The notes beneath the pieces are model-generated. The model was not told the origin of the DNA and did no database searches. It saw only the letters and a program-made list of their open reading frames with translations. A program made the position numbers and the translations under genes. DNA of 64,000 nucleotides. Source: a virus. Below, piece by piece: positions 4,478 to 61,535 of this stretch. Every line of letters starts with the position of its first letter. Positions within the stretch are counted from its first letter, which is position 1. Location: positions 310,001 through 374,000 of the IMG/VR virus record IMGVR_UViG_3300044797_000098; one strand, given 5' to 3'.

Positions 4478-4768
4478 TTATATTAACAATGCTTGTTCTT
4501 CTGTCAGAATGACATAACCAAGTTTAATTAGATTCTTATCTAAATCTACCATTGCTTCTCGTAATGAATAATATTGTTTATGTCTACAAGGTGTTATAAA
4601 CCAGTATTTTCCTATGTCAAACTTTGTCGAATATAATATATGCCCATCATATATTGGATCTAATTCTTTTCCTGATAAAAACCTACGAATATATCTATGC
4701 GTATCGAGCTTTTTATCAAGTGAAAATTGAACTTTTTCATATGGCAACAAGTATTTAGAACGACTCAT
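4478..4768 (-). CDS. Family A paralogue 6
   Basis: The start MSRSKYLLPYEKV at 4768 is chosen to match the MDKSRYLTPY start of paralogue 5. The 96-residue product ends LDKNLIKLGYVILTEEQ-ALLI. Its first 14 nt overlap the end of the 4755-4973 gene in another frame. It is the first gene of the array in transcription order. Confidence 0.7.
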   Translation of the reverse strand: MSRSKYLLPYEKVQFSLDKKLDTHRYIRRFLSGKELDPIYDGHILYSTKFDIGKYWFITPCRHKQYYSLREAMVDLDKNLIKLGYVILTEEQALLI

Positions 4769-4973
4769 CTGTTTCAATAACCTTTTTTAATTCAATCTTT
4801 GCCAACCATTCTTTTTGCCAAGATTTTGTTTCTTCAATGTATTGTAATGCTTCTTCTTTTGAATCGAAGTGTTTCGTTCTGGCAGTTCGATCGTCAAGAT
4901 CATTTGTTATATTGCCAAGACTATCTGGAAGCCAACATATAAAATATACTTTATAGTAAGTTTTAGTATCCAT
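4755..4973 (-). CDS. Small acidic hypothetical protein
   Basis: The 72-residue protein (MDTKTYYKVYFICWLPDS) contains HFDSKEEALQYIEETKSW. The SKEEA-x-x-x-E helix recalls the TKEEAMAVCERH block of family E at 52.8-55.9 kb. It has no family tail. It overlaps its neighbours by 11-14 nt, consistent with coupled translation. Confidence 0.6.
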   Translation of the reverse strand: MDTKTYYKVYFICWLPDSLGNITNDLDDRTARTKHFDSKEEALQYIEETKSWQKEWLAKIELKKVIETDESF

Positions 4974-5220
4974 AGTATTCTGCTGTTGCCTCTTTACACA
5001 TAGTTATATAATTCGCCATATGCGTTAGCGCTTCTTCCAAGCCAATACATCCGTCGAAGTCATCACCAACTTCCATTCCGCATTCGGTTTTACCATCGAT
5101 ATCCAACCGAAGATACCCGCCACGGTATCTAATATAAATATCGTGGTCATCAACTGTTTTTCCTTCCCATTGTGATGGGCAACCAAAACAAGTCTGTTTT
5201 ATTGTTTTTATTTGATACAT
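4963..5220 (-). CDS. Hypothetical protein with N-terminal CxxC
   Basis: The 85-residue protein has CFGC near the N-terminus, a predicted beta-strand region (DIYIRYRGGYLRLDID) and an acidic centre with an alpha-helical end containing the EEALTHMANYI helix. No family is recognised. It overlaps the genes on both sides. Confidence 0.55.
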   Translation of the reverse strand: MYQIKTIKQTCFGCPSQWEGKTVDDHDIYIRYRGGYLRLDIDGKTECGMEVGDDFDGCIGLEEALTHMANYITMCKEATAEYYGY

Positions 5221-5522
5221 TCTGTTTTAATCTCCGTGTATAATTTATCGTATTCTTTTCCGAATACCTTTTTTGCTTCGCCAATCAATAACTCCAAAAA
5301 CTTTTCTTCATCCTTTGGTTTTGCCACGGTATGTTTGTTTTTAGTTATATGCTGGATGAACCGCTCTTGTTCAATAATAAATCTAAATACCGCATCAACT
5401 GCAAACTTATTTTTTTGTTCTTCGAGATTGGAACGAAACTGTTCCAATGATATTTTACGATTGTAAAAATAGTTTTCTCGATGAAGAACTATATCAATGG
5501 GGTCTGCTCCGCCTTGTTTCAT
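5208..5522 (-). CDS. Hypothetical helical protein
   Basis: The start MKQGGADPIDIVLHREN at 5522 is chosen because its ATG overlaps the stop of the 59-residue gene upstream (ATGA). The 104-residue product is charged and predicted mostly helical, with no recognised domain. Confidence 0.6.
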   Translation of the reverse strand: MKQGGADPIDIVLHRENYFYNRKISLEQFRSNLEEQKNKFAVDAVFRFIIEQERFIQHITKNKHTVAKPKDEEKFLELLIGEAKKVFGKEYDKLYTEIKTECIK

Positions 5523-5698
5523 TTGTGTTCGGGGCAAAATGCTTTGATTACTTTGGCATCTTCCATATCAAGTTTCCAACCAGCATCATACAACGCTTTA
5601 ATTAGATCTCCCCAAGTTTCCTCAAACTGATCGAATCCAATTGATTGACATAATTTGCAGCCATCATGATCGCATACGACATTTATATGTATTGCCAT
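5519..5698 (-). CDS. Small zinc-finger-like protein (59 residues)
   Basis: The reading frame starts at the ATG 5698-5696 (MAIHINVVCDHDGCKLCQ) and ends with AFCPEHK. Cysteines and a histidine are spaced C-x4-C-x2-C near the start and C-x2-H at the end, a plausible zinc site. It fits exactly between its neighbours: the stop of the upstream gene is 2 nt away, and its own stop overlaps the next ATG as ATGA. That packing is the main support. Confidence 0.65.
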   Translation of the reverse strand: MAIHINVVCDHDGCKLCQSIGFDQFEETWGDLIKALYDAGWKLDMEDAKVIKAFCPEHK

Positions 5699-5699
5699 C

Positions 5700-6218
5700 T
5701 TATACTCCGAGATATTCGTTCAACATAGTATCAATTTGCAATTTGACAAAAGAATCACTAATTAATTCTGCTGGTAAATCATAACCTTGGAATGGATTCA
5801 TCCATAAATATATTGCAGAATGAAAATTGTAATCGACTATTTCTTTCCAATTAGCAACAACATCAAAACTTGGATTTATTCTTTTATTAGCATAACATTG
5901 CGCCAAGTATGCTTTCTTTTCATAATTGGCACGAAACAAAAATGGAAACGGCAAAAGGTATAAAAACGAATAGAATATGTTCCTGCTACGATCCATTACA
6001 TGAACGCTCTCATGCAATATTCTGGCTGGGTCTTGTTCAACTTGGTCGAGTGATACCACATAAATTGTATTTCCGATTGTTGTCCAATAATTGGTCATAA
6101 ATGCATTTGTTTGCCAAAACATTATTGCTGCAATGGCTTTCATGAACCACGAAGATTTTTTCTCAACTATATTCACTTGTGGGAAGTGTTCCTTCACAAT
6201 ATTAACTATTGATGCCAT
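5700..6218 (-). CDS. Putative HExxH zinc peptidase-like protein
   Basis: The 172-residue protein contains ILHESVHVMDR, a typical zincin HExxH motif, at about residues 87-97. A hydrophobic segment (FYSFLYLLPFPFLF) follows, and an acidic PAELISDSF near the C-terminus could supply the third zinc ligand or glutamate. It may be membrane associated. Metallopeptidase activity is inferred from the motif alone. Confidence 0.6.
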   Translation of the reverse strand: MASIVNIVKEHFPQVNIVEKKSSWFMKAIAAIMFWQTNAFMTNYWTTIGNTIYVVSLDQVEQDPARILHESVHVMDRSRNIFYSFLYLLPFPFLFRANYEKKAYLAQCYANKRINPSFDVVANWKEIVDYNFHSAIYLWMNPFQGYDLPAELISDSFVKLQIDTMLNEYLGV

Positions 6219-6229
6219 AATAGTTTCCT

Positions 6230-6619
6230 TTATTTCAATATCTCTAATCTATCCACATTAGAAAACTTCTTTAAATCTTCTAAATCAATTTTAAATCTTG
6301 CTGTTTTATTCATTGTATAATGGTCTTCAATATATGGTATTTCGCTATTATCTAATTCTTGTCTAATATAAGGAAGCATCTGATCATATACGCTGGTTCT
6401 TTCATGAGGCGGGTAATTACCAGAATATGATGATACAATAAAATCATCAACAACTATTTCTTTTCTACCTGATTTTATCGCAGACTTGCAACTATCGAAT
6501 ATATTTTTCCACATCACGCGAATAAAATTAGCAACGAACTTATTATCGATATAAGCATACTCGTATTTGGTTTCGGAAAATATCTTTATTAATTCTAATT
6601 TAGCGTCTCTTTTTTCCAC
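6230..6619 (-). CDS. Hypothetical protein
   Basis: The 129-residue charged protein (MEKRDAKLELIKIFSETKYE) has a VDDFIVSSYSGNYPPHERT segment. No known domain is recognised. It is followed 11 nt later by the HExxH gene on the same strand. Confidence 0.55.
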   Translation of the reverse strand: MEKRDAKLELIKIFSETKYEYAYIDNKFVANFIRVMWKNIFDSCKSAIKSGRKEIVVDDFIVSSYSGNYPPHERTSVYDQMLPYIRQELDNSEIPYIEDHYTMNKTARFKIDLEDLKKFSNVDRLEILK

Positions 6620-7003: not shown

Positions 7004-7859
7004 TTAGACATTTATCTAAGAACTCTAATGCAGCGAATGGTGAGGCCGTTTCTTCCTTGTCCTCATCCTCATCGTCTATTTCTTCTGAAACTTGTTTTTC
7101 ATTTGAGTTTCTGAAAAGATCGATGTAATCTTTGTATTTTGGAATACTTGGTTCATCTGGCTTTCTTGGCAATCGTTGTATGGTTCTATCATAGAGTTTA
7201 TATCTTGCTAATCCTTGTTCTGAAAAGGCTAATATAGACGATGATTTTGTGCATACACCAGTGATTTTGTCATCTTTTTTAGATGGTTTTATTCTTAAAT
7301 AATCTTTATTTGCAAGAGTTCTTTTTAATATTTTGTAATATGCAAGCCAATCTTTATCTGTGATTGCATCAAGTTTAGAATGGACATATTGATTTTTTGC
7401 TGGTATTCTACTAAATACCATATCATTTGATATGACATGCACCCCATGAGTTAATTCTTTTATTACCATTGAATGCAAAATATATGAATGTGCTATGAAA
7501 ACTTTATCCTGATTCCCGAATATTAAATTGAAACCGTTATACAACAACGGATCAATTTCTTCAACGAACTGAATAAGATCATTAAGCTTTGTGGATTTCA
7601 ACGCTTCCATTACAATTTTACCGCGAGTTTCTAATACCGGATTTGTATTACCTTGGTTAGTTATTCCAACGAATAAGGAATGACCATTTACCGCAAGCCA
7701 AGTTCCACCTTTTAATTCGTCTCTTCCGCCCATAATCAACGGGTTTGTTGATAGTAATTGAACACCGGATGATGGGCGTGCAATATCTTCATCCCGATTG
7801 GACGCGATTACGAGCGGAAAACCTTTGTAGTGATGATTTATTACTATGATGGAACACAT
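6978..7859 (-). CDS. NRDE-family (TANGO2-like) protein
   Basis: The 293-residue protein starts MCSIIVI and carries ASNRDEDIARPS and GGTWLAVN. This is the hallmark N-x-x-NRDE-x-x-RP and GGTW pattern of the NRDE/TANGO2 family. Cys2 is the expected N-terminal nucleophile of its NTN-hydrolase-like fold. The final ~40 residues are strongly acidic (EEIDDEDEDKEE). The family is found in bacteria, eukaryotes and some viruses; its biochemical role is not settled. A tandem 22-bp duplication has altered the C-terminal codons. Confidence 0.8.
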   Translation of the reverse strand: MCSIIVINHHYKGFPLVIASNRDEDIARPSSGVQLLSTNPLIMGGRDELKGGTWLAVNGHSLFVGITNQGNTNPVLETRGKIVMEALKSTKLNDLIQFVEEIDPLLYNGFNLIFGNQDKVFIAHSYILHSMVIKELTHGVHVISNDMVFSRIPAKNQYVHSKLDAITDKDWLAYYKILKRTLANKDYLRIKPSKKDDKITGVCTKSSSILAFSEQGLARYKLYDRTIQRLPRKPDEPSIPKYKDYIDLFRNSNEKQVSEEIDDEDEDKEETASPFAALEFLDKCLSKIKLITK

Positions 7860-7869
7860 TATGTTCGGA

Positions 7870-8097
7870 TTAGCCTCGTGTTGCTTGTATTACTTTATTA
7901 CCTTCAATGATGAGATTGACTCTGTCTGAACGATGTTCCGCAGTATATGGTGCTTTTGGATCTTTCATAACTCTGATATTATCGACGCCGTTCAATTTTA
8001 ATGTCCTAACTGCTTGTTCTTCTGTCATACCGACAATATGATCAATTACATCATCGTGTGATGCTTTTACTGTTGTTGTGTGTTTAATTGTTGTCAT
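7870..8097 (-). CDS. Peptidase inhibitor I78-like protein
   Basis: The 75-residue protein has the order seen in I78 inhibitors: a G-M-T-E-E-Q-A helix, a VDNIRVMKD strand, then EHRSDRVNLIIEGNKVIQ, resembling the family's x-R-x-x-R-v-n-v-x-x-d-x-x-g-x-I ending. I78 proteins inhibit serine peptidases. There is no signal peptide, so any target would be cytoplasmic. Its ATG overlaps the stop of the following gene region (8097). Confidence 0.55.
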   Translation of the reverse strand: MTTIKHTTTVKASHDDVIDHIVGMTEEQAVRTLKLNGVDNIRVMKDPKAPYTAEHRSDRVNLIIEGNKVIQATRG

Positions 8098-8900
8098 TAT
8101 GCTACCCTCTTTAATACCATATCAACTCTACTGGATTTCAGTTTTATTAAATGATCTCTTACTTTGTTCAGAAAATAACTTCTCTCTTTTAGATTTTCTA
8201 AATCTTTTGTTGCTTCGAGCAGACTAACCATAACTGGTATATTGATTTTATCGATCATAATCATACGCAACGCATCATCTACTATTGATTGTTTGTTTTC
8301 TTTATTCATTTTACTTACTGTTTCAGATATAAAATCTGTTGCTTGTGCGGTTTTATTTGCTTTTACAAGATCGTTTATTTTATCAATGAATGCTTCGCGT
8401 TCCTTATATGCTGGGCTCCCGTAATAATTGTTATTATTATAGGTTTGCGTTTGGTGTGATTGTTGTGATTGATATGGTTTATCATACGGCGCATATGATT
8501 GCGTGGACTTTGGTCTATCGTTATATTGTTGGGAATATGGATATGTGGCGTTTGACAATTCTTTTATATTCAATGCGAAAAAATTATAGATACTACTTTC
8601 TACTTCTTTACACCATTCTATAATGCCAGTGGATTCATTTATTCTATCGCCAGTGATATAGTCTTTGATGTCAAAAGAATAAAACTGAACTTTTCTATTA
8701 ATAACATCCACATGAACATAAAACTCTTCCTTTGTATAATGCTTATGATATACAAGTGGAAGTGATTTTAGTTTTTCACCCATAACAATGAACTTCTTGG
8801 CTTCATCGAAGAAAAAATAATTTACATCCTTTTTAGGATGTTCTTTGATTAAATCAAGAAAATTAAGTATCTTGTTGTAATTTGTCAGATCATTAATCAT
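8097..8900 (-). CDS. Hypothetical protein with Gln/Asn/Tyr-rich linker
   Basis: The 267-residue protein has an N-terminal domain (residues 1-115), a low-complexity linker rich in Q, N, Y, P and S (~120-165) and a helical C-terminal domain (~170-267). No known family is recognised. The linker is typical of two-domain phage proteins; anything further would be a guess. Confidence 0.6.
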   Translation of the reverse strand: MINDLTNYNKILNFLDLIKEHPKKDVNYFFFDEAKKFIVMGEKLKSLPLVYHKHYTKEEFYVHVDVINRKVQFYSFDIKDYITGDRINESTGIIEWCKEVESSIYNFFALNIKELSNATYPYSQQYNDRPKSTQSYAPYDKPYQSQQSHQTQTYNNNNYYGSPAYKEREAFIDKINDLVKANKTAQATDFISETVSKMNKENKQSIVDDALRMIMIDKINIPVMVSLLEATKDLENLKERSYFLNKVRDHLIKLKSSRVDMVLKRVA

Positions 8901-9385
8901 TGTGTTGGCTCTGGTGGTGTTTCTGGTTTAATTTCTGGCTCTGTTGTTTCTTGTGCTACCGGTGTTTCTTCCTCGATATCTTCCTCAACATCTTCTTCAC
9001 TGTCTTCGTCTTGTGTAAATTTAACCAATTTAAGATGCGTTGCCTTAGCCTTTTTTGTGGATGAACCAATATCTGTTTTTGCTGATGTGCTTTGGGTCGA
9101 CCAAGCAAAACGCGATCCTCCAACGCTAACTGAAACAATGAATGTATAAAAAGGAATGTTGCTCTCGACTAACATAGATACCAATGTTGTTCTAATTTCT
9201 TCTGCATCTATATTGTCATTGGAACTAACCAATAATGCGAATAGTGCCGTTGGACAATTTTGATCTGTAAGCAGATGGCTTTTGCCGAATGGCGCAATAC
9301 CATATCCAGCCCTGAAAATCAGCGCAACAACTTTATCTATTGATGTATCGTTTGGCACACACATAAAAACTGCACAAGTATTCAT
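8897..9385 (-). CDS. Hypothetical protein with acidic tail (paralogue of 9387-9761)
   Basis: The first ~95 residues resemble the next gene upstream: both have a VDK-(V/A)-V/I start, then a RAGYG/KKGYK turn, an LxxDQ(N/S) segment and a mid-length helix before an LVE/LSD loop. The last 50 residues are highly acidic and Pro/Thr-rich (EEDVEEDIEEETPVAQETT). The two genes are 1 nt apart and probably arose by duplication. Function unknown. Confidence 0.6.
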   Translation of the reverse strand: MNTCAVFMCVPNDTSIDKVVALIFRAGYGIAPFGKSHLLTDQNCPTALFALLVSSNDNIDAEEIRTTLVSMLVESNIPFYTFIVSVSVGGSRFAWSTQSTSAKTDIGSSTKKAKATHLKLVKFTQDEDSEEDVEEDIEEETPVAQETTEPEIKPETPPEPTQ

Positions 9386-10528: not shown

Positions 10529-10867
10529 TCATACTAATAGCAGATACTTTTCTATTTCATCCGCATACTTTGCGTATTTTTCTGGATTTCCTGTTTGACA
10601 CTCAAAACTTGCATATTTAATGTTATAGTCAGTATAATTAAAATTATTAATTAGGTAATCCACATACCATTTTAATACTCTGATTATATTTTTAGCAACT
10701 GGAAGATTACGTTTTTCATACGTATCAAAACATGAATACCATATCCCTATCCCATATTCTATGCCTTCTTCTGTAAAATCATCATCAACAATTTTATATT
10801 TCCATCTATTAATATGATTTTCAGGATCCTCACCGAGGTTCTCAATATATTCATAACGAATGAACAT
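10529..10867 (-). CDS. Family B paralogue (DFTE domain, EKYLLLV tail)
   Basis: The start MFIRYEYIENLGED at 10867 is chosen because other family B members begin MF(I/K) and the upstream gene stops at 10870. The 112-residue protein carries the family core: KIVDDDFTEE, IWYSCFDTYEKRNLPVAKNI and the ending YADEIEKYLLLV. It is the longest typical member because of an insertion before the tail. Function unknown. Confidence 0.7.
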   Translation of the reverse strand: MFIRYEYIENLGEDPENHINRWKYKIVDDDFTEEGIEYGIGIWYSCFDTYEKRNLPVAKNIIRVLKWYVDYLINNFNYTDYNIKYASFECQTGNPEKYAKYADEIEKYLLLV

Positions 10868-10869
10868 AA

Positions 10870-11607
10870 CTATACCAAGTGGGAAAATGTCGGCGAACTC
10901 CATACAAACTCACTCATTGCTTTTTTATCGAGGTAATGCGTATGGATTTCTTTCTGCTGGAATGTTTTATCTATAAAACAATCATACGATTTAGATTGAC
11001 CGTTGATTGAAACGCTTCGGATTGGATCTCCATTAACGAAGTGAAGCGCTGCATGATCATCAATTGCATATCCACTTCCGATACGGCCAATAACCATTTC
11101 TTTTTCGTATGCTTCTCGTCGTTTATCTGAACTATAATGAGGACAATTGCTAAATGGCAAAATACCAAGGCAAGGCATCACACTTAATTTTCCGGGCACG
11201 CTATCAGTGATGCATTCTTTGAACCATACTACGCTACCAGCGCTTCCACCTGATAGGATGACGCCGTTGTCATAAGCCTTGCGAAGTATGACATCAAGTC
11301 CCCAAGATTTCCATAAAACTAATGCGTTGCGTGAATGTCCGCCCGATACGAAAACAATATCGTTCTCTAATACAATGCTTTCTAAGTCTTTATTTGGCGG
11401 GCTGAACAATGAAAGATATGATGGCTCGCAAGAAAAACGATCGAAGTATTCCATAAAATATTTTATGTAGCCACCGTCATCTCCTGACGGCGTTCCAAGG
11501 AATAATATTTTTGGATTTTGCTTCTTTGTTTGTGCCAATATGTATAATTCGATGGATGGATTTTTACCGTCCATTCCACCAGAACCGATTGCAATTATTT
11601 GCTTCAT
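10870..11607 (-). CDS. Peptidase S51 (dipeptidase E / cyanophycinase-like)
   Basis: The ATG at 11607 (MKQIIAIGSGGM) is preferred to an upstream in-frame ATG because it begins at the first strand of the fold. The 245-residue protein has FLGTPSGDDGG, VFVSGGHSRN and the nucleophile elbow LSGGSAGSVVWF, in which Ser of G-x-S-A-G is catalytic. HYSSDKRREAYE and a late YAIDDHAAL complete the S51 pattern. Such enzymes cleave Asp-X or isoaspartyl bonds. The target here is not known. Confidence 0.8.
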   Translation of the reverse strand: MKQIIAIGSGGMDGKNPSIELYILAQTKKQNPKILFLGTPSGDDGGYIKYFMEYFDRFSCEPSYLSLFSPPNKDLESIVLENDIVFVSGGHSRNALVLWKSWGLDVILRKAYDNGVILSGGSAGSVVWFKECITDSVPGKLSVMPCLGILPFSNCPHYSSDKRREAYEKEMVIGRIGSGYAIDDHAALHFVNGDPIRSVSINGQSKSYDCFIDKTFQQKEIHTHYLDKKAMSEFVWSSPTFSHLV

Positions 11608-15176: not shown

Positions 15177-15440
15177 TCACATCAACAATAAATATTTTGC
15201 AATATCTTCTCTATATGGATCTAATTTTTGGGTCCTCGGTAATCCGTGTCTTTGAAAATAAAAATGTTTATATGCCAATACGAAGTTAGCCGCAACATCT
15301 AATCCACGAGATTTGTATAATTCAATGAATTCATCTGTCCATGAATCCCAAAAATCATCTTTACATTTAATTAATTCCGTAAAATTAGTATCTACTATTT
15401 CATATGTATGCGATCCAATATAAATACTGTTTTTAAACAT
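15177..15440 (-). CDS. Family B paralogue (AKYLLLM tail)
   Basis: The 87-residue protein (MFKNSIYIGSHTYEIVDTNF) has TNFTELI in place of the usual DFTE, then an FIELYKSRGLDVAANFVLAY helix pair and the ending YREDIAKYLLLM. It is the last gene of a run starting at ~19.7 kb and lies just upstream of the helicase promoter. Confidence 0.7.
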   Translation of the reverse strand: MFKNSIYIGSHTYEIVDTNFTELIKCKDDFWDSWTDEFIELYKSRGLDVAANFVLAYKHFYFQRHGLPRTQKLDPYREDIAKYLLLM

Positions 15441-15446
15441 ATGATC

Positions 15447-15746
15447 TCATACCAATATTAAATACTTTTCAATATCATCTTTATATTTAAATAAATCTTC
15501 ACTATCAAGTAATTGTCGCAATTGCGAAAGATTAAGTTCTTTCATCCATCCTGATTTTTTCAATGCAAAAAATACATTTTTAACAACACTATCTGGCGTA
15601 TGTGTTTCATATGCATGAACAATCCCACCCCATACCATTTCACTTGTAAGGTCTTCTGCTCTCCTACAATTTTTTACAATACACATAGTAAAATCACTAT
15701 CTACCATAAATAAATCTCCATTGTTTTCAACTGTATGACTAAACAT
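15447..15746 (-). CDS. Family B paralogue (EKYLILV tail)
   Basis: The 99-residue protein has FMVDSDFTMCIVKN, a VWGGIVHAYETHTPDSVVKN segment in place of the YEKRNLNVAAN block, and KYKDDIEKYLILV at the C-terminus. It is one of the more diverged members. Its ATG overlaps the end of the upstream gene by 8 nt. Confidence 0.65.
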   Translation of the reverse strand: MFSHTVENNGDLFMVDSDFTMCIVKNCRRAEDLTSEMVWGGIVHAYETHTPDSVVKNVFFALKKSGWMKELNLSQLRQLLDSEDLFKYKDDIEKYLILV

Positions 15747-18020: not shown

Positions 18021-19395
18021 AAAGCCCCAATGATTTATCTTGGGGATGAATTGCGTTATTAGAAATATTTTCGTAGTAATGTCGATTTTCTTAAAAAACT
18101 ATACATAATCTGATATATACTATAAGATGTATAATAAAACATATTCCATTCGCCTCTTTCCAACCGCTGATCAACAAAATCAACTAATGGAACTTATTGC
18201 TATTCGCAATGACATTTGGAATACACTAATCGATGTAGCAAACGCGTTTTATACTGATACAAAGAAAACGCTAAATAATTATGCAATGCATAAAGAAATA
18301 ACAATTCTAAAACAAACAATAGAAAAACAACACTGGTCAAAACTAAACGCAAAAGCAGCACAACGAGTGGCAACAGGGTTATTCGCTTCATATCAACAAT
18401 TTTTCAACAATATCAAAAAGAATAAACCAGCATCGCTTCCGAATAAACTTGAACCAACAGTCAAAAAATCAATCATATTCAATCAGTCAGGTTGGAATAT
18501 TTTGAAACAAAATAATTCAATCGATGGCAACATAATCGTAATAAATAAAATACCGTTTCAATATAAATCACATATCAAAAATCTCGATGAACTGAATGTC
18601 AAAGAATTAAAAATAAAATACAGAAACGATAAGTGGTTATGTGATTTATGCGTTGAATATAACGAAACCTATCCAGAAACTATCGAACCTAAACGAGTAT
18701 TAGCCATTGATCTCGGATTGAAAAATCTTGGAACAGGTATCGACAGTAATGGCACCATTGTAATAATTCCAAACAAAGCAAAGAAAGTATCCAAACACTT
18801 TGGAGAACAAATAGCAAAAATAGATACAAAAATATCAAAAAAGAAAAAAGGTAGCAGACGATATAAAAAATTGAGAGCAATACGAAGAAAATTATTCAAT
18901 AAAAAGAACGCACAGGTAAAACAAACTCTACATATTCAGAGTAAAAGAATTGTGAATATGAACTATCATACGATAGTAATTGGTGATCTATCCGTAAAAG
19001 AACTAATGAACAAGCAGAACAATAATAAAAAAGGTGTAAGAAAATCTTTCGGTCAATCGAATGTCAGTATGTTTCTAACATATCTATCATATAAAAGCAT
19101 TGGCAAAACCAATATCATAAAAATAGATGAGCGACATACGACGCAACTAAACTCGCTAACAGGTAAGAAGTTTCCAGAAAAAATTGAATTAAAAGATCGA
19201 ACAGTAAAACTAACGGATAGTATTGAGATCGATCGTGATCTCAACTCGGCTATAAATATCTATAACAGATGGTATAGCAACCAAATTGTGCCACTGACAG
19301 CGCCACTGGATTTATTCAGTGTGCTTGAAAAGAGTAATCTTTTCAAGAAAACTTGAAACATAAGAACCCCCGAACATTTATGTCGGGGAGTATGT
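18021..19395 (+). mobile_element. IS200/IS605-type element carrying only tnpB
   Basis: The element has tnpB but no tnpA. It is bounded by two subterminal hairpins: CCCCAA/TTGGGG with a 9-nt loop at 18025-18045, and CCCCGA/TCGGGG with a 9-nt loop at 19368-19388; the loops share ATTTAT. Hairpins of this kind are recognised by the Y1 transposase of this family, so mobility would need a TnpA elsewhere. The exact ends are uncertain by several bases. The two flanks together reconstruct one interrupted small gene. Confidence 0.7.
18127..19356 (+). CDS. tnpB: TnpB-like protein lacking zinc-finger cysteines
   Basis: The 409-residue protein has the TnpB order: N-terminal SIRLFPTADQQ, RuvC-I with Asp195 (AIDLGLKNLG), a Lys/Arg-rich bridge region (~235-262), RuvC-II (IVIGDLSVKEL, 283-293) and RuvC-III with Asp369 (EIDRDLNSA). 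In RuvC-II the position usually held by catalytic Glu is Gly286. A TnpB subgroup with IGDL at this place is known to me, so this alone does not prove inactivity. The zinc-ribbon CxxCG pairs are replaced by LNSLTGKK and KLTDSIEID, so no zinc site is left. TnpB proteins are RNA-guided nucleases; this one may be diverged, repurposed or decaying. Confidence 0.85.
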   Translation: MYNKTYSIRLFPTADQQNQLMELIAIRNDIWNTLIDVANAFYTDTKKTLNNYAMHKEITILKQTIEKQHWSKLNAKAAQRVATGLFASYQQFFNNIKKNKPASLPNKLEPTVKKSIIFNQSGWNILKQNNSIDGNIIVINKIPFQYKSHIKNLDELNVKELKIKYRNDKWLCDLCVEYNETYPETIEPKRVLAIDLGLKNLGTGIDSNGTIVIIPNKAKKVSKHFGEQIAKIDTKISKKKKGSRRYKKLRAIRRKLFNKKNAQVKQTLHIQSKRIVNMNYHTIVIGDLSVKELMNKQNNNKKGVRKSFGQSNVSMFLTYLSYKSIGKTNIIKIDERHTTQLNSLTGKKFPEKIELKDRTVKLTDSIEIDRDLNSAINIYNRWYSNQIVPLTAPLDLFSVLEKSNLFKKT

Positions 19396-19701: not shown

Positions 19702-20045
19702 AACAACACCATCAATTTATCAAAACGCTTTATGAAAGTATCCTTATCAAAATTATCTAATGAATAGATTGTATTCTGTTTTGTTGTGTGTATGAAACGA
19801 TTTTCTTTTGTCATTGCGAAGAATGTATTCTCATCATCATAATTTACATCAACAACATATCCAATATCATTTACAACATTATACACCATAACTTCTTCCG
19901 AAAACAATGCTCCATTATCTTTTATGATGATTGAATAATTGTGATCTGCTGGAAGAATGAAAATATCATTTCCAGCGCAAGACATTAGATTTTTTGACAA
20001 TGCTGATAGTTCTTTATTACATACCTTGCAGGTATATGTTTTCAT
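19698..20045 (-). CDS. Zinc-ribbon protein with DKLMVLF tail
   Basis: The 115-residue protein begins MKTYTCKVCNKELSALSKNL, a CxxC knuckle with only one further Cys (SCAGND), then a beta-rich middle. It ends TFIKRFDKLMVLF, nearly the same tail as family D although the rest is unrelated. Both ends are ATGA overlaps. Confidence 0.65.
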   Translation of the reverse strand: MKTYTCKVCNKELSALSKNLMSCAGNDIFILPADHNYSIIIKDNGALFSEEVMVYNVVNDIGYVVDVNYDDENTFFAMTKENRFIHTTKQNTIYSLDNFDKDTFIKRFDKLMVLF

Positions 20046-20176
20046 ATAAGTAATAGATATTTTTCTAATTGTTCAGATGTAAATTGCGTCCTATGGATGA
20101 AGTTATATATTTCAATAAAATCATTCAGTGATGTTATGATGCTTGTTGCTTTATATGTTTCCAATAAATGTTTCAT
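20042..20176 (-). CDS. 44-residue protein with EKYLLLI tail
   Basis: The frame starts at 20176 (MKHLLETYKATSIITSLNDF) and ends TSEQLEKYLLLI. Its last 25 residues match the end of the next gene upstream, including FIE-x-YNFI, and the DNA is also repeated. ATGA overlaps join it to both neighbours, which strongly supports that it is translated. Confidence 0.65.
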   Translation of the reverse strand: MKHLLETYKATSIITSLNDFIEIYNFIHRTQFTSEQLEKYLLLI

Positions 20177-20397
20177 GTTAGTAATAGATATTTTTCCAAT
20201 TGTTCGACTGTAAAATGTGTATGACGAATAAAATTATATGTTTCAATAAATGTTTCTGTCTTAACGTATAAATGTTTTGATACAACATAAGTATCCACTA
20301 ATAATTTGATTTCGTGTTTTAGATTTGTCATATCGTTGTTTAGATCTACACCTAATTCACCAGCAATAAACGCTATATATAATGCCACAAAATACAT
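20173..20397 (-). CDS. Hypothetical protein with EKYLLLT tail
   Basis: The 74-residue protein has a hydrophobic N-terminus (MYFVALYIAFIAGELGVDLN), a helical middle and the end FTVEQLEKYLLLT. It is the parent or sister of the 44-residue gene next to it, which keeps only the C-terminal half. Confidence 0.65.
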   Translation of the reverse strand: MYFVALYIAFIAGELGVDLNNDMTNLKHEIKLLVDTYVVSKHLYVKTETFIETYNFIRHTHFTVEQLEKYLLLT

Positions 20398-20403
20398 TTA
20401 TTT

Positions 20404-21354
20404 TTATGGATTATCACCTAAATAATATGATTTTACAATTTCTGAAACAAACCTCATTGTATCTCGTGCTTCTGATATTTCAATATATTCGTTAGTCTGC
20501 GCTCCGCGCGAATTATGGTATCCGCATGTAAGATTAACTGCATTCTTTGCGTATCCATTCTTGTATAACGCATACACATCAGTGCTCAATCCGCATACAA
20601 TTTCTCGTGGCATTCCTAAATTAAAAGCAAGTTCGAGCATATGCACAACCTTTTCGTATGTGCATATTACTGTGTTGCTAATTTTTGGAACCAATTGATT
20701 GCTATGATTTCCACGATCGACCTGAACCAATAACTCAAACTCCTTCAATTTATCCATTTTGCAAGCACTTGCGCTTTGCAACCCAATCTCTTCATCGGTC
20801 GGGAAAAACAATCCCATATCATATCCAGTATTCAGCGCAATCCAAGTATTGATTGCGACACCAAGCCTGTCATCACCGCCAACTTGCAATTTGCAGTCTT
20901 TATCCTGAATAATTCTTCGTATCTCACCCTCGTGTTCAATCATTTTGATCACTGGTTCAACTTTTTGGCTGGACAATTGGCTTCGATTTTCAATCGTGCT
21001 TTCTTCCTTATCCGTTAGCCAAGAATACTCGCCAAGCATACTGTATCGACTACTCTCATGATCACGACAAACATCTGTATGTGCAACGAGGCAAACTTTC
21101 GGCTCGCCTCTAATTGCAAGCATATTATGCACCGTCGAATAACGCTTGTCTTTCTTTACGCGATCCGTCTGATACCCATCTTCGTAGATAGTGAAACCTG
21201 CTCGTCCAAGGACTTTATGTAGCCATTTTCTCAGCGTCCATTCATCTGATTTGCAGCATTGAATGATATGGTATTCAAACGCTGACATATCTTTTGATTT
21301 CATTTCTTCTTTAACAATTTGTTCAACTTGTTCGCTACCTGATGAATATGACAT
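20404..21354 (-). CDS. M20/M28-like zinc metallopeptidase
   Basis: The 316-residue protein has the expected co-catalytic zinc motifs in order: VAHTDVCRDH, GGDDRLGVA, the acidic TDEEIGLQSA, VQVDRGNHSN and a late CGYHNSRGAQTNEY histidine. These match aminopeptidases/deacylases of the M20/M28/M42 clan. It probably removes an amino acid or acyl group from a small substrate. It has its own promoter (21431-21459) and a structured leader of about 70 nt with CCCTGAACAGG- and TTCCC-AAAGC-GGGAA-type hairpins. Confidence 0.75.
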   Translation of the reverse strand: MSYSSGSEQVEQIVKEEMKSKDMSAFEYHIIQCCKSDEWTLRKWLHKVLGRAGFTIYEDGYQTDRVKKDKRYSTVHNMLAIRGEPKVCLVAHTDVCRDHESSRYSMLGEYSWLTDKEESTIENRSQLSSQKVEPVIKMIEHEGEIRRIIQDKDCKLQVGGDDRLGVAINTWIALNTGYDMGLFFPTDEEIGLQSASACKMDKLKEFELLVQVDRGNHSNQLVPKISNTVICTYEKVVHMLELAFNLGMPREIVCGLSTDVYALYKNGYAKNAVNLTCGYHNSRGAQTNEYIEISEARDTMRFVSEIVKSYYLGDNP

Positions 21355-21430
21355 TTGTTTTTCTTAACTTTCTTCCCGCTTTGGGAATGGTTTTTCACGC
21401 TACCCAAAACACCTGTTCAGGGCAACCACT

Positions 21431-21459
21431 AATGTAAGGCTTCCGACGCACGAAGTCAA
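21431..21459 (-). promoter_or_regulatory. Sigma70-type promoter for the metallopeptidase gene
   Basis: TTGACT (21459-21454), 17-nt spacer, TACATT (21436-21431). It begins 3 nt after the stop of the macro-domain fragment. Confidence 0.8.
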
Positions 21460-21461
21460 GC

Positions 21462-21593
21462 CTACATCCACTTATACAATACTACATCAACTTTATGCAA
21501 TTCATTTGCAATAATCTCGAAGTTTTCGAGCATCTTATAGTAATGTTCCCAATTACCATTTGCTAAACCGCAACCTATGTATAATTTTTGCAT
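21462..21593 (-). pseudogene. Orphan 3' fragment of a macro-domain gene
   Basis: The 43-codon frame (MQKLYIGCGLANGNWEHYYK) matches the last third of the intact macro-domain protein next door (RIGCGLSAGNWGKYYKMLEW). It ends at a TAG at 21464-21462. The GIY-YIG gene on the other strand lies between the two copies. It contains no ADP-ribose-binding N-terminal half, so it is not a functional macro domain. Confidence 0.65.
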
Positions 21594-21599
21594 AACGAT

Positions 21600-22310
21600 A
21601 TGCAATACTTAATATATAAAATAACCAACACAATCAACAATAAAATATATATCGGGCAGACTAAAAATTTAAAAATGAGAATTGCAAGGCATAAATCCGA
21701 AGCATTAAAAATACATAACACTAAACCTTTATATAGAAGTATAAGAAAAAACGGATTTAAAACTTTTTTATTTTCTATAATAGAGGAATGTAGCAACGCT
21801 AATGTTGATGAACGAGAGATATTTTGGATTAATTATTATAAATCGACTAATAAAAAATATGGTTATAATCTTAGCACAGGCGGTAAAGGGTATGTTGGCA
21901 CAATAAAACCACGAATTTCACCAATGAAAGGCAAAAAACACTCGAAAAAAACTAAAAGAAAAATGTCCGAACAAAGAAAAGGATCTAAAAATCCATTTTA
22001 TGGAAAAACACACACACAAGAAGTGAAAGAAAAATTATCAAAAAATCCTAATAGGAAACATTTTGGAGAGGAAAATCCATTTTACGGTAAAAAACATTCG
22101 AAAAAAACAAAAAATGCTATATCGAAAATGGCATCAAAAAGAGTGGGTGAAAAAAATCCATTCGCAAAATTAAATGCAGTCACCGTATTAGAGATACGGG
22201 AAAAATTTAAAAATAATAAAATATATATGGCCCAGTTAGCAATAGATTATAATATCAGTGAAACAACCGTGGCTAACATAATCAAAAGACGAACTTGGAA
22301 ACATATATAA
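21600..22310 (+). CDS. GIY-YIG homing endonuclease with NUMOD-type repeats
   Basis: The start ATG at 21600 gives MQYLIYKITNTINNKIYIGQ, the GIY-YIG core (YLIYK, then YIGQT). The arginine follows in MRIARH, and the catalytic Glu in the EREIFWINYY region. NUMOD3-like repeats (GKKHSKKTKRKMSE, NPFYGKTHTQEVKEK, NPFYGKKHSKKTK) come next. A C-terminal helix-turn-helix (AQLAIDYNISETTVANI, then WKHI) completes the 236-residue protein. It stands on the opposite strand between an intact macro-domain gene and an orphan copy of that gene's 3' end. Confidence 0.9.
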   Translation: MQYLIYKITNTINNKIYIGQTKNLKMRIARHKSEALKIHNTKPLYRSIRKNGFKTFLFSIIEECSNANVDEREIFWINYYKSTNKKYGYNLSTGGKGYVGTIKPRISPMKGKKHSKKTKRKMSEQRKGSKNPFYGKTHTQEVKEKLSKNPNRKHFGEENPFYGKKHSKKTKNAISKMASKRVGEKNPFAKLNAVTVLEIREKFKNNKIYMAQLAIDYNISETTVANIIKRRTWKHI

Positions 22311-22312
22311 AA

Positions 22313-22777
22313 TTATAATTTATAAATAACAACATTTGTTTTTTGTTTATCATAAACAATTTGATCAAACCATTCTAACATTTTATAGTATTTTCCCCAG
22401 TTTCCAGCAGAAAGTCCACAACCTATACGGAACGGGAATGCTATGCTTTCCAAGTTTTCAATCTTTGCAATCTGACGAAGACATTGCCAAAAATATCCTT
22501 CTCTAACAATTGAACTATCAATCAATGATTTTTCATTGGATCGTCCGGGGTAATATTGGGCTAATAATCCTATTACATTGCCTCTAATAACTATATGTCC
22601 GGGCAAGTCATCACCTTTTGCGACATAAGGATATGGTCGATGCGAGTATATATTTGACTGTGGAAAGCGGTCGAATAAACTCTTCGCCAATCCTAATGCT
22701 CCTCGTGAAACACAATTACATTGATGTCCAATAAATTGTTCTTTTGCGTCCAGTATATTGCCATTGATTGTTTTCAT
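22313..22777 (-). CDS. Macro-domain protein
   Basis: The 154-residue protein has the macro-domain signatures: GNILDAKEQFIGHQCNCVSR, then GALGLAKSLFDRFP, and the phosphate-loop-like FRIGCGLSAGNW near the end. Macro domains bind or hydrolyse ADP-ribose derivatives such as ADP-ribose-1''-phosphate, or remove ADP-ribose from proteins. In a phage it might act in NAD or ADP-ribose-based conflict with the host; that is inference. It ends 2 nt from the GIY-YIG gene on the other strand. Confidence 0.8.
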   Translation of the reverse strand: MKTINGNILDAKEQFIGHQCNCVSRGALGLAKSLFDRFPQSNIYSHRPYPYVAKGDDLPGHIVIRGNVIGLLAQYYPGRSNEKSLIDSSIVREGYFWQCLRQIAKIENLESIAFPFRIGCGLSAGNWGKYYKMLEWFDQIVYDKQKTNVVIYKL

Positions 22778-22784
22778 TTTATAC

Positions 22785-23057
22785 CTATACTAAAATTAAA
22801 TACCTCTCTAATTTATCCGTATTTATTCCCAAGTCTTCATTTATATATTTTAACATATGTGGAATATTTCCTTCTTTGCAATAATTAATAAAACAACGAG
22901 CAAAATTACTCCACACATCCAATTCTCTTTTAGAATAAACTTCAATCATTGCTTCCCATATAGAACTTACACGTCTACTATCTACATGCTCTACAAAATC
23001 ATCATCTATTATCGTAAATAATTTATCATACGGATCATGTGAAAAAGACTTGAACAT
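22785..23057 (-). CDS. Family B paralogue (ERYLILV tail)
   Basis: The 90-residue protein starts MFKSFSHDPYDKLFTIIDDD, with DDDFVEH for the DFTE motif, SIWEAMIEVYSKRELDVWSN for the central helix pair, and INTDKLERYLILV at the end. It is closely related to the next gene upstream and separated from it by 5 nt. Confidence 0.7.
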   Translation of the reverse strand: MFKSFSHDPYDKLFTIIDDDFVEHVDSRRVSSIWEAMIEVYSKRELDVWSNFARCFINYCKEGNIPHMLKYINEDLGINTDKLERYLILV

Positions 23058-23062
23058 TTTAT

Positions 23063-23395
23063 TTATACCAACATTAAATATTTTTCAACTTCATCAATGT
23101 TTATATTTAAATCTGAATAATGTTTATCAGTGGCAAGCATACGGATCATATCTTCATATATTGAAAATTTATTTTCAATACAATATTTTTTTAACGCAAT
23201 TGCTAAGTTTCCATATACGTTTAATTCTTTTTTAGAATAAACATGAAAAATAGCGTGCCATATTGAATACCCTTCCCAATCATCAGTAAAATCTGAATCA
23301 GTTATTACATAATGATACGGGGCAATATATAATGGATCGTCCTCATCAGAATATGATATTCCATCAATATATTTGGATTCGAATTTAATAAACAT
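23063..23395 (-). CDS. Family B paralogue (EKYLMLV tail)
   Basis: The 110-residue protein starts MFIKFESKYIDGISYSDEDD, has VITDSDFTDDW, SIWHAIFHVYSKKELNVYGN, and a long C-terminal helix ending NINIDEVEKYLMLV. The YSKKELNV block matches the downstream copy (YSKRELDV), supporting local duplication. Confidence 0.7.
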   Translation of the reverse strand: MFIKFESKYIDGISYSDEDDPLYIAPYHYVITDSDFTDDWEGYSIWHAIFHVYSKKELNVYGNLAIALKKYCIENKFSIYEDMIRMLATDKHYSDLNINIDEVEKYLMLV

Positions 23396-23673
23396 TATTC
23401 TCTAATCAATCTCTGTAAAACAATATCCACAATATAACTAACACTTGCCCCAGCCAATCCGAATAATATAAAATCGCGAAAACTAAATTGATCGAATGAT
23501 AGCAGATATACTAAATATCCTGCATGGAATCCAACACATGCGTAGCAAGAAAATAATTGGTAAAATAGTGGGTGCTGACGGATTAACCATATACGAGGCT
23601 TATCAAAAAGACTACTGTCTTTTATAATAAATGTCAATCCATAGAACGCGAATAAAATTATTACTATATTCAT
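23395..23673 (-). CDS. Small membrane protein with CYACVGFH motif
   Basis: The 92-residue protein has hydrophobic segments at ~1-15 (MNIVIILFAFYGLTF), ~37-60 (containing CYACVGFHAGYLVYLL) and ~65-87. The C-x-x-C-x-G-x-(H/W) pattern occurs in small phage membrane proteins of the DUF1360-like kind, but I hold that only loosely. It lies inside a run of tail-bearing genes but lacks the tail. Confidence 0.6.
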   Translation of the reverse strand: MNIVIILFAFYGLTFIIKDSSLFDKPRIWLIRQHPLFYQLFSCYACVGFHAGYLVYLLSFDQFSFRDFILFGLAGASVSYIVDIVLQRLIRE

Positions 23674-23675
23674 TT

Positions 23676-23891
23676 TTACATCAACACAAGTAAATGTTCC
23701 ACTTCTTCAAGTTTTATATTATGCAATTGTCTTCCGGTTCTAACAAGTCTATGTGCTTCAATCCATAAATCACCATTGAAAATTTCAATCAATGTTTTTA
23801 TTGGGAATAGGTATTCTTCATTTAGTCTCGCCGTAGTCCATACAAGATCAACAAAATCTAAAAACTCTTTGATTTCTTCTGGCGTGCTCAT
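23676..23891 (-). CDS. Hypothetical protein with EHLLVLM tail
   Basis: The 71-residue protein starts MSTPEEIKEFLDFVDLVWTT and ends NIKLEEVEHLLVLM. It lacks the DFTE motif of family B, yet it ends with the same kind of C-terminus and joins the family B copy upstream by an ATGA overlap. Confidence 0.65.
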   Translation of the reverse strand: MSTPEEIKEFLDFVDLVWTTARLNEEYLFPIKTLIEIFNGDLWIEAHRLVRTGRQLHNIKLEEVEHLLVLM

Positions 23892-28348: not shown

Positions 28349-28645
28349 CTAAATTAGCATTAAATACTTTTCAATATCTTTTGCATACTTCTCATATAAT
28401 GGATTATATACTTTATTGTCTTCAATAATTTCTTCTATTGTAAGTTCATCATCGGGATAGGAACGTTCTTTTGCCCAATGTTTGAATGCTAATGCCATAT
28501 TAGCACCGACATTTAATCCTCTGTGTTCATATATACGAAACATTCCATACCATCCGCCAATCCCATTACCGGGATTTGGTATTCGACTATATTCTTCAAC
28601 AAAATCTGTATCTATAATACAACCATTATCCGTTTTTATGAACAT
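28349..28645 (-). CDS. Family B paralogue (EKYLMLI tail)
   Basis: The 98-residue protein (MFIKTDNGCIIDTDFVEEYS) has a very short lead-in before the DFTE motif, then GWYGMFRIYEHRGLNVGANM and KYAKDIEKYLMLI. It is the last gene after the five large paralogues, in transcription order, and may be co-expressed with them. Confidence 0.7.
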   Translation of the reverse strand: MFIKTDNGCIIDTDFVEEYSRIPNPGNGIGGWYGMFRIYEHRGLNVGANMALAFKHWAKERSYPDDELTIEEIIEDNKVYNPLYEKYAKDIEKYLMLI

Positions 28646-45228: not shown

Positions 45229-45590
45229 TTGACCAATTCCTCTCTAATCATAACGCCCAATTCATAAGCAAAATCTTCCTGATCATATTCGGATTTTGGA
45301 TATCCGTCGAAACCTTTTTGGAATGAACGAACCCAATTTACATTTGTTTCCAAAATCTTTTCGATTGAATAACTTCTCCAATTGGTGAGGTGTGCTGGTA
45401 TAACATTTTGTTTTGCCAACATTACACACGCGAGCGCACAACAATTAGCATCCTTCTTTGGCACCCATTGTTCTTTGCCTTTGATTTTTTTGAGTTCGAT
45501 GCCCCAAGATTGAATGCCAAGTTTTACACCATTGGCCGTGATGGTTTTGATTGCATCACGAATAATCTGTTCTCGTTCTCCGTCATTCAT
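45225..45590 (-). CDS. Hypothetical protein
   Basis: The 121-residue protein (MNDGEREQIIRDAIKTITAN) has a KKDANCCALACVMLAKQ segment with three cysteines and an acidic helical end (EYDQEDFAYELGVMIREE). No known family is recognised. Confidence 0.55.
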   Translation of the reverse strand: MNDGEREQIIRDAIKTITANGVKLGIQSWGIELKKIKGKEQWVPKKDANCCALACVMLAKQNVIPAHLTNWRSYSIEKILETNVNWVRSFQKGFDGYPKSEYDQEDFAYELGVMIREELVK

Positions 45591-45892
45591 AGTAATAGCA
45601 ACAATTTTTCTAATTGTTCCACTGTTTTAGCATCGAATAGTTTCGCCCCATACAATTCAGTTATACAGTGAATGTCGATTGCTAATCCGTTCTCCATTCT
45701 AACCCTGCTAACAATGGTTTTAAAACCTGTGTTTTCCAACTCCCATTCTATTCTATATGTCGCCCCAACTGTGCGGAATGCATACCCATTCCATTGACTA
45801 ATATCGCATTCGTGGCATTTAGAAAATGAACCACCAAAACCATTATCCCATATCAATGGCTGTTTGCAACATATACAATTTTTGTTTATCAT
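45587..45892 (-). CDS. Zinc-ribbon paralogue (family C) with EKLLLLL tail
   Basis: The 101-residue protein starts MINKNCICCKQPLIWDNGFG, with the second pair KCHECDISQW. The middle is beta-rich (TYRIEWELENTG). It ends FDAKTVEQLEKLLLLL, the most leucine-rich form of the tail. Three more copies follow upstream. Function unknown. Confidence 0.7.
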   Translation of the reverse strand: MINKNCICCKQPLIWDNGFGGSFSKCHECDISQWNGYAFRTVGATYRIEWELENTGFKTIVSRVRMENGLAIDIHCITELYGAKLFDAKTVEQLEKLLLLL

Positions 45893-46152
45893 AGTAAAAT
45901 CAATAGTTTCTCAATTTGTTCCACTGTTCTAACATCGAATAATTTATACCCAACAAAAGACTTAATCGCTTTTGGTGAGCCACTGTGTCTTGAAAAAATA
46001 AATGTATGATTGTTTGACCACTCAATATCATATGAATATATTTGTCTGATCGAAAAAAGAGTGTAATGATAAATATCACATTGATTACAATACCTTACCA
46101 AGGCGAATGGATCCAGCGGTATATTACAAGCGATACAATTCATACGCCTCAT
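45889..46152 (-). CDS. Zinc-ribbon paralogue (family C) with EKLLILL tail
   Basis: The 87-residue protein starts MRRMNCIACNIPLDPFALVR, second pair YCNQCDIYHY, then SYDIEWSNN. It ends FDVRTVEQIEKLLILL, nearly identical to the downstream copy over the last 16 residues, while the middle is shorter. Confidence 0.7.
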   Translation of the reverse strand: MRRMNCIACNIPLDPFALVRYCNQCDIYHYTLFSIRQIYSYDIEWSNNHTFIFSRHSGSPKAIKSFVGYKLFDVRTVEQIEKLLILL

Positions 46153-46460
46153 ATCAAAATCAACAATTTTTCTAATTGTTCTTTCGTCTTTATATCGAAC
46201 AATTTCCAGCCATCGATTACTTTGATTTCATCTGGATACCATTGTTTTATGGATTCGAACCACTTATCCTTGAGTATGGCAGTTATTGGATCTGCACTAT
46301 ATTCATCCCTATTCCATTGGATCACATAATTCTCTATGTATCTTCCGCAATCATTACCATCATAATTCATATCACCAAAATATATTATATCACATTCATC
46401 ACATTTGTTTGTGGTTTGTGTTGCGTTTCGTGTTGGTTTCTTGCAAGATATACATCTCAT
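46149..46460 (-). CDS. Zinc-ribbon paralogue (family C) with EKLLILI tail
   Basis: The 103-residue protein starts MRCISCKKPTRNATQTTNKC, second pair CDECDIIYFG, then NYVIQWNRD. It ends WKLFDIKTKEQLEKLLILI. ATGA overlaps link it with both neighbours. Confidence 0.7.
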   Translation of the reverse strand: MRCISCKKPTRNATQTTNKCDECDIIYFGDMNYDGNDCGRYIENYVIQWNRDEYSADPITAILKDKWFESIKQWYPDEIKVIDGWKLFDIKTKEQLEKLLILI

Positions 46461-59930: not shown

Positions 59931-60952
59931 GGTATAGCGTTCAATCTTTCAACAACTTCAATTAATACCTCTTTTTCCACCGCAAGATTTATCCTAACCT
60001 TACTCGCATCACCAAAACCTTCTCCATCTGCCACATTGATTTTAGCGTGTTGCAACTTTTGATATTCTTTCCCTTTTCTAAACCAACCAAACATCCCCGG
60101 AATATCAACAATATCTTCCGGCACATCAAGAATATCTTTACGAATAGATTTGATGATTGTCTTGTTTTCAATCAATCCTTCTTGGCATCGTTGAATGAAT
60201 ATATCGTATGTCTCTTTTTGTTCAAGATCGGTTAGCAATTCGAGAACAATACTTTGACTAACTGTCGATACACCGACTGTCATCATTTCCATATATTCTT
60301 GGATATCGTGGTGGAATTGTTCATTACTACAAACCGTATAACCAATCCTTAAACCTGACAAACCTAAAAACTTACTCATTGAATAAATCTGAACATCACC
60401 CAATGCAGGGAAGTCCTTATATGTCGGAAGATAGATTGGGTTGTAATACACCGCGTCATGTATGAATGGAACATTGTTGTCCTTGTGCCATTCAACAAGC
60501 GTTTTTATTCGTTCGGGACAATCGAACATATTACCACACGGATTACCCGGAAGCACTGCAAGATATGCATCATAAGATCGATCCACTGTTTCAAGACCGT
60601 GTGCTTTTAGCAACGGAGGAATTAATGGCCAAACTGGTCTCGTCAATGCTACTCGTTTTTTATTCATTTTATTGAGCGCATATGCCACTGCCCCAAGTGC
60701 ATTCTTCGCCCCATTTGTAATTACGACTGGTGCCTGATGCTTATCTTCCAAAAACTTTACAAGCGGTGGATATCCTGTTGGTGGCTGATATTCACATTTG
60801 TTATTTGAGTATAAATCAACGCTCAACTGATTTTGAGATCGATATAGGTCGAGCGTTGTTAGCAATGCATTACGAACAATATGAGCCTCGCCCACTGACA
60901 AGTCAATAAAACCCTCACCTAATTTTGGAATTGCAAGTAATAAATTACTCAT
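59927..60952 (-). CDS. PLP-dependent aminotransferase (class I/II)
   Basis: The 341-residue protein has the fold type I landmarks: TNGAKNALGAVAY for phosphate binding, LPGNPCGN with the Asn, HDAVYYNPIY with Asp and Tyr, the PLP lysine in SMSKFLGLSGLRIGY, and the late Arg in VRINLAVEK. The substrate amino acid is unknown. It could supply or alter an amino acid during infection; the R2K ATP-grasp enzyme is another amino-acid-related gene in this window. Confidence 0.85.
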   Translation of the reverse strand: MSNLLLAIPKLGEGFIDLSVGEAHIVRNALLTTLDLYRSQNQLSVDLYSNNKCEYQPPTGYPPLVKFLEDKHQAPVVITNGAKNALGAVAYALNKMNKKRVALTRPVWPLIPPLLKAHGLETVDRSYDAYLAVLPGNPCGNMFDCPERIKTLVEWHKDNNVPFIHDAVYYNPIYLPTYKDFPALGDVQIYSMSKFLGLSGLRIGYTVCSNEQFHHDIQEYMEMMTVGVSTVSQSIVLELLTDLEQKETYDIFIQRCQEGLIENKTIIKSIRKDILDVPEDIVDIPGMFGWFRKGKEYQKLQHAKINVADGEGFGDASKVRINLAVEKEVLIEVVERLNAIP

Positions 60953-61233
60953 ATTAGCACCAAGTATTTTTCCATTTCTTTATCATACTTACCGTTCGTG
61001 CATCTACTAACGACACCATATAAATGATGTATTTGTTTTCTATCAATGCCATTGGTCATTCCTCGAACTAAATTACGAGCAACATCCAATCCCTTTTCCT
61101 CATATATTAAAACCGTTGCTTCCCAATAATTACTTGCCATTATGGTCTCGGTAAAATCATCATCAACGATTGTAATATAATATGTCTTATTTGATCCAAG
61201 TGGAGTGTATTTCCAATCATATGATTTTAACAT
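60949..61233 (-). CDS. Family B paralogue (EKYLVLI tail)
   Basis: The 94-residue protein starts MLKSYDWKYTPLGSNKTYYI, has IVDDDFTETIMASNYWEATV, LIYEEKGLDVARNLVRGMTN and NGKYDKEMEKYLVLI. The last gene of a four-gene array; the ATG of the aminotransferase gene overlaps its stop. Confidence 0.75.
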   Translation of the reverse strand: MLKSYDWKYTPLGSNKTYYITIVDDDFTETIMASNYWEATVLIYEEKGLDVARNLVRGMTNGIDRKQIHHLYGVVSRCTNGKYDKEMEKYLVLI

Positions 61234-61535
61234 AACAACATATACTTTTCTATTTCTTTGTCGTATTTCCCGTTTGATTTTGCCATCATAAAATCATAGT
61301 ATTCCGTTTTAGACCATGCTTTGTTACAGAGTTCCATAACAATCTTATATGTCAATACCAAGTTCTTTGCAACATTCAAGTTTCGTTTTTCATATTCTTG
61401 TATTACCGCTTCCCAATAACTATTAGCGCGAACCAAGGCACAAAAATCAGTATCAGTTATTTCAAAACTGAACCTATACTTATCTGGCATAGGAGGGATT
61501 TCACGATCGTCGAGTAATCTAATTGATTTTAGCAT
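61227..61535 (-). CDS. Family B paralogue (EKYMLLC tail)
   Basis: The 102-residue protein starts MLKSIRLLDDREIPPMPDKY, has EITDTDFCALVRANSYWEAV, QEYEKRNLNVAKNLVLTYKI and NGKYDKEIEKYMLLC. DFCAL replaces DFTET. It overlaps the downstream gene by 7 nt. Confidence 0.75.
   Translation of the reverse strand: MLKSIRLLDDREIPPMPDKYRFSFEITDTDFCALVRANSYWEAVIQEYEKRNLNVAKNLVLTYKIVMELCNKAWSKTEYYDFMMAKSNGKYDKEIEKYMLLC

Follow-up and report, generated by a model that had tools for sequence, protein, structure and literature searches.

A foreign 3′ end carried with a GIY-YIG nuclease gene probably replaced the end of a macro-domain gene in a large phage

A macro-domain gene, whose product is of an ADP-ribose-binding type, carries a foreign 3′ end in a large phage genome, is followed by an antisense GIY-YIG nuclease gene and has its own original end displaced beyond that gene. 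We consider it very probable that the locus is an end-replacing homing element, in which a nuclease borne by a donor cut the resident gene and the repair brought in both the foreign end and the nuclease gene. The window analysed here is a stretch of 64,000 nucleotides, bases 310001-374000 of a 406-kb virus record from a metagenomic assembly, and this genome is a large phage by its gene content. The reference for identity comparisons was L003 (IMGVR_UViG_3300031595_000166, a 157-kb contig), a relative that lacks the nuclease. In the reading direction of the macro gene, the order is the complete macro gene (22777 to 22313), the antisense GIY-YIG gene and an orphan 3′ end. The features of the locus are as follows.

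22427-22777, minus strand: resident 5′ part of the macro-domain gene, codons 1-117; 79.5% DNA and 81.2% protein identity to the uninterrupted L003 gene; GC 37.9%
22313-22426, minus strand: foreign 3′ end of the macro gene, codons 118-154 and stop; 62.2% DNA and 56.8% protein identity to L003; GC 26.1%, nuclease-like
21600-22310, plus strand: GIY-YIG and NUMOD3 homing endonuclease gene (Pfam, phrog_314), tail-to-tail with the macro gene
21579-21599, no strand: 21-bp spacer from the nuclease start codon to the orphan edge, the right border of the insert; homology to L003 ends at 21578/21579
21465-21578, minus strand (stop codon 21462-21464): orphan, the displaced original macro 3′ end, 38 codons; 79.3% DNA and 81.1% protein identity to the L003 3′ end
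21579-22426, no strand: whole insert, 848 bp, comprising the foreign macro end, the nuclease gene and the spacer; the flanks when joined restore a 155-aa frame

The complete macro gene (22313-22777, minus strand) has its stop 2 bases from the end of the nuclease gene on the opposite strand, and the insert is made up of 114 bp of foreign macro end including the stop, these 2 bp, the 711-bp nuclease gene and the 21-bp spacer. When the flanks are joined without the insert they give a frame of 155 codons, the length of the L003 protein, with 126 of the 155 residues identical to it. The orphan and the complete macro gene both match phrog_335, and the orphan aligns with the end of the complete gene at 58% identity over 36 residues (E about 3e-13) and 61% in DNA. 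The initial annotation had described this three-part layout and placed every element correctly; the orphan that it took for the last third of the macro gene is the last quarter (37-38 codons). It was also right that a complete macro gene, a nuclease gene and an orphan end do not amount to a simple insertion, and that the nuclease arrived with an extra gene end; the foreign end and the nuclease gene lie on the one 848-bp insert.

The locus in L003 has the same neighbours as that in the window, with small ORFs upstream and a peptidase gene downstream, and holds a single macro gene of 155 codons. The segments compared with it are short (37 codons) and L003 is the sole close empty-site relative found. 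Gene front and orphan stand equally close to L003, to which the end of the complete gene is much less similar; the first two thus have a common history, from which that of the complete gene's end differs. Identity at third codon positions follows the same division, with 65.0% for the gene front, 64.9% for the orphan and 37.8% for the end of the complete gene. The best breakpoint within the complete gene falls at nucleotide 362 (codon 121; support range 342-428; permutation p=0.0075). Read against L003, the complete gene is a chimera in which a foreign 3′ end has been joined to the resident 5′ part, and the orphan is the 3′ end that originally belonged to this phage and was displaced. This comparison establishes, at the level of sequence, which end is displaced and which is foreign, that the site is empty in L003, and where the borders of the insert lie. 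The window between 23116 and 24165 is 97-100% identical to L003, as against 74-80% in the macro region and the peptidase gene, and represents a tract of recent exchange, with its edge only a few hundred bases away from the nuclease locus.

It had been proposed that the nuclease came with, or caused, a partial duplication of its target, in which insertion of the nuclease gene would have duplicated the phage's own macro 3′ end. This would account for a nuclease flanked by two copies of the same gene end, and it fails on the origin of the copies, as the orphan is as close to L003 as the gene front and it is the end of the complete gene that is foreign. DNA identity is only 61% between the two copies, as against 79% between the non-functional copy and L003. 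A Tajima-type count with L003 as reference gives 28 DNA changes confined to the end of the complete gene and 9 confined to the orphan (chi-square 9.8), so that the expressed copy would need to have diverged about three times faster than a dead fragment. The foreign end moreover has the GC of the nuclease gene (26% and 28%, against 38% in the gene front and 33% in the orphan), and we regard the duplication as very unlikely. The donor of the foreign end was sought among 80 macro loci from viral contigs, of which none was closer to this end than L003 and the best others reached about 47%; one scan of genome contigs for a donor gave no relative and a distant DNA search against a phage collection gave no match.

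A different origin would be from two tandem macro genes, one of which was truncated before a nuclease gene was inserted between them. Phages can carry tandem paralogues, and the nuclease gene of locus L130 sits between two complete genes. The initial annotation had named tandem macro genes in nuclease-free relatives as the observation that would speak against its reading; we looked for such relatives and found none. L003 has one macro gene, not two, and in L100, another relative as judged by its peptidase (76%), the corresponding place beside this same neighbour holds no macro gene. The orphan has also diverged from the single L003 gene to the same degree as the front of the complete gene, which is what the halves of one gene would do, and a tandem origin is the least probable of the alternatives that we weighed.

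The nuclease ORF matches Pfam GIY-YIG (PF01541, 5.5e-11, above the cut-off) and NUMOD3 (PF07460, 5.2e-18, in two stretches), and it matches the phrog_314 homing endonuclease at 3.6e-40. The listed ORF opens with TTG at 21588, the likely start is the ATG at 21600 and the stop ends at 22310. The features of a NUMOD3-type GIY-YIG homing endonuclease are present, a catalytic domain followed by NUMOD3 DNA-binding motifs, and the sporadic presence expected of such genes is borne out by the empty site between the same flanking genes in the close relative L003. A group I intron or an intein was considered and rejected, as there was no Rfam match up to E=1 in 20400-23700, the nuclease ORF is antisense to the macro gene and the macro frame is complete without it. 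Promoter-like sites in the insert showed no excess over shuffled sequences, and the other five GIY-YIG genes of the 406-kb genome have no flanking gene-end repeats of this kind.

Pfam's Macro model stayed below threshold on the macro sequence of the window, and the identity of the gene therefore rests on profile and fold evidence. A profile of seven sequences matched macrodomains in the PDB (best E 7e-18), and the AlphaFold model of the protein (pLDDT 92) matched TARG1, DarG and viral macrodomains in Foldseek (best E 1.7e-6). The break lies at codons 118-122, at IGCGL, and GCGL is invariant in 30 viral macro proteins; conserved codons of this kind are common targets of homing nucleases. In the AlphaFold model GCGL lies in the loop between a strand and the last helix, and the swapped module is therefore the last helix and strand.

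For the end-replacing element that we favour, these features suggest the following course of events. A GIY-YIG nuclease from a donor phage would cut the resident macro gene at or beside the codons for the conserved IGCGL loop. Repair would then copy in the 848-bp block, which continues the reading frame of the resident 5′ part with a divergent and presumably uncuttable macro 3′ end and then carries the antisense nuclease gene. The resident 3′ end would stay behind as the orphan and could at best act as the right homology arm when the element homes again. We infer that the nuclease encoded here made the cut, and the element may still be mobile. The initial annotation had anticipated that the intact copy would be altered at the predicted cut site, and the sequence at the inferred target does differ between the chimeric and the resident end, which is compatible with resistance and says no more; it is plausible that the chimeric gene resists the predicted nuclease.

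Nucleases also lie beside macro genes in other phages. The closest homologue of the nuclease among the loci compared is in L116, with 44% aligned identity over the full length, and immediately precedes a macro gene on the 268-kb contig of another large phage. L116 came from a macro search; it also ranks first in a later scan with the nuclease profile, a result that is not independent because this homologue was one of the two queries. In L130 a different GIY-YIG gene lies between the macro and PARP genes, which abut each other in L128. The nucleases of L116 and L130 both stand beside macro genes, and this module has therefore been hit repeatedly; their adjacency supports, and does not prove, that the macro gene is the target. 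An end replacement was rejected for the macro genes of L116 and L130, in which there is no abrupt step at the gene end relative to the nuclease-free L119 and L128. A PARP-like gene adjoins the macro-domain gene in L116 (1535-4468, WGR-PARP), L130 (3998-6555), L128, L119, L110, L150 and L153, and the phage PARP-like and macro genes could form a writer and eraser pair of ADP-ribosylation. The search of the 406-kb genome for a PARP gene gave no match, as did the same search of control genomes, and the negative result thus does not establish that the gene is lacking. In L107 (1462-3396, Pseudoalteromonas phage PH357) the macro gene adjoins genes for ribose-phosphate pyrophosphokinase and nicotinamide phosphoribosyltransferase, neighbours that suggest a role in NAD metabolism.

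The same layout was looked for in an unbiased way at 105-107 distinct related nucleases, with the tandem nuclease pairs L007, L035 and L197 discarded. Flanking protein repeats were found at 3 of 105 nucleases and at 6 of 465 control ORFs and are thus not clearly commoner at nucleases, so that each case rests on its relatives and not on the rate. Two cases beyond the window were obtained.

L230 (IMGVR_UViG_3300024999_000675), 4717-6262: RusA 5′ stub, GIY-YIG nuclease and complete chimeric RusA gene
L220 (IMGVR_UViG_3300028048_000089), 7764-9274: 5′ stub of a Holliday-junction-resolvase-like gene broken at PNSGA, GIY-YIG nuclease and complete gene

In L265, a syntenic relative of L230 that lacks the nuclease, the same upstream gene stands directly before RusA, and the stub of L230 with its leader is 76% identical to L265 over 71 bp. 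The complete RusA gene of L230 changes its affinity at about codon 55, from L266 or L271 before it to L265 beyond it, with informative sites split 24:14 between L266-like and L265-like before the breakpoint and 20:89 after it (permutation p=0.0005). This supports the same process for L230 in mirror image, acting putatively at the 5′ end of RusA. The relatives of L220 have one copy and no nuclease and are too distant to tell the resident from the foreign end; L220 is suggestive and probably a third case. The nuclease gene is oriented alike at all three loci, with its start towards the stub and its 3′ end abutting or overlapping the complete gene.

These loci bear on ordinary mosaic recombination, by which illegitimate joining would have swapped the macro end and left the old one behind, with the nuclease coming separately at a later time. 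Phage genomes are mosaic, and the tract upstream of the locus (about 24165-23116) is nearly 100% identical to L003 with the macro region at about 80%. Chance joining leaves unexplained that the border falls at the most conserved codons of the gene, that only 2 and 21 bp of the insert separate the nuclease from its neighbours, that the foreign end and the nuclease are alike in composition and that the same coupling is seen in L230 and L220. We judge this history improbable, slightly less credible than the duplication. Taking the three loci as end-replacing elements, we lean, by a small measure, towards the view that such elements form a class in phages, one that has originated at several genes and at 5′ as well as 3′ ends (the macro 3′ end, the RusA 5′ end and the 5′ end of the resolvase-like gene), which would act as natural rescue drives. 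On this same tentative reading each homing event would swap a gene end, leave a dead stub and force mosaic evolution of the target.

Elsewhere in the window there are about 15 small ORFs, many in overlapping tandem, with a common C-terminal tail such as LEKYLLLI; they lie on the minus strand at 10529-10903, 15177-15746, 20042-20397, 22785-23395, 28349-28645, 45587-46460 and 60949-62112. A similar series of ORFs in L085 ends in IKTLKEII, and the tail may be a shared tail or a coupled ribosome-binding site. An ORF of 409 aa at 18127-19356 (plus strand) has, as judged by eye, the look of a TnpB/OrfB-type transposon protein.

The macro locus has two features of an end-replacing element of the WHO or fungal mobile ORF type, a chimeric full-length target and a displaced resident end beyond the nuclease gene. 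To our knowledge, the seg and mob nucleases of T4-like phages sit between genes or split genes and bring no replacement gene end. These nucleases and the macro locus are alike in having a free-standing GIY-YIG nuclease gene beside its presumed target, and the review text on T4-like nucleases makes no mention of duplicated, truncated or fragmented target copies (PMC2988022). The WHO elements of the yeasts Torulaspora and Lachancea, which have been tested experimentally, replace the 3′ end of FBA1; in them too the nuclease gene separates a chimeric target gene of full length from a displaced 3′ fragment, the divergent 3′ end brought in confers resistance and the cut site marks where the fragments start (PMC7282813). 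WHO is a LAGLIDADG, intein-like zinc-finger protein of yeast nuclei, whereas the phage locus encodes an antisense GIY-YIG/NUMOD3 protein with predicted nuclease activity. With this nuclease type and a macro gene as the target in place of FBA1, the locus does not belong to the WHO family proper.

Mobile ORF elements of fungal mitochondria (Allomyces atp6; Glomus atp6, atp9, cox2 and nad3) consist, like the macro locus, of an inserted foreign C-terminus and endonuclease ORF, with the native C-terminus displaced downstream and closer to the gene of a relative; one case, atp9, is GIY-YIG (PMC3630166). In these cases identity to the relative is 91-98% for native C-termini and 64-81% for inserted ones (PMC3630166), figures that those at the macro locus resemble. 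The fungal elements lie in organelle genes with the ORF often in phase with the host gene, in contrast to the phage gene and antisense nuclease here. The synthetic home-and-rescue drive HomeR has the same layout, with a resident 5′ part, a re-coded 3′ end, a nuclease cassette and the displaced native end as right homology arm; HomeR is an engineered CRISPR system, and the likeness is an analogy of design without kinship (PMC7968924). A literature search (full text, few subscription journals) gave no report of an end-replacing homing element in phages.

The usual view is that free-standing homing nucleases of phages spare their host through their location, which is an intergenic region, an intron or an intein. 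If our reading is true, phages also have a fourth way, described to date in yeast and fungal mitochondria, in which the element enters a gene at its most conserved codons and supplies a functional substitute for the end of that gene. Such elements would be a natural counterpart of engineered home-and-rescue drives, and would explain why phage genomes contain stubs of gene ends and sudden steps in divergence.
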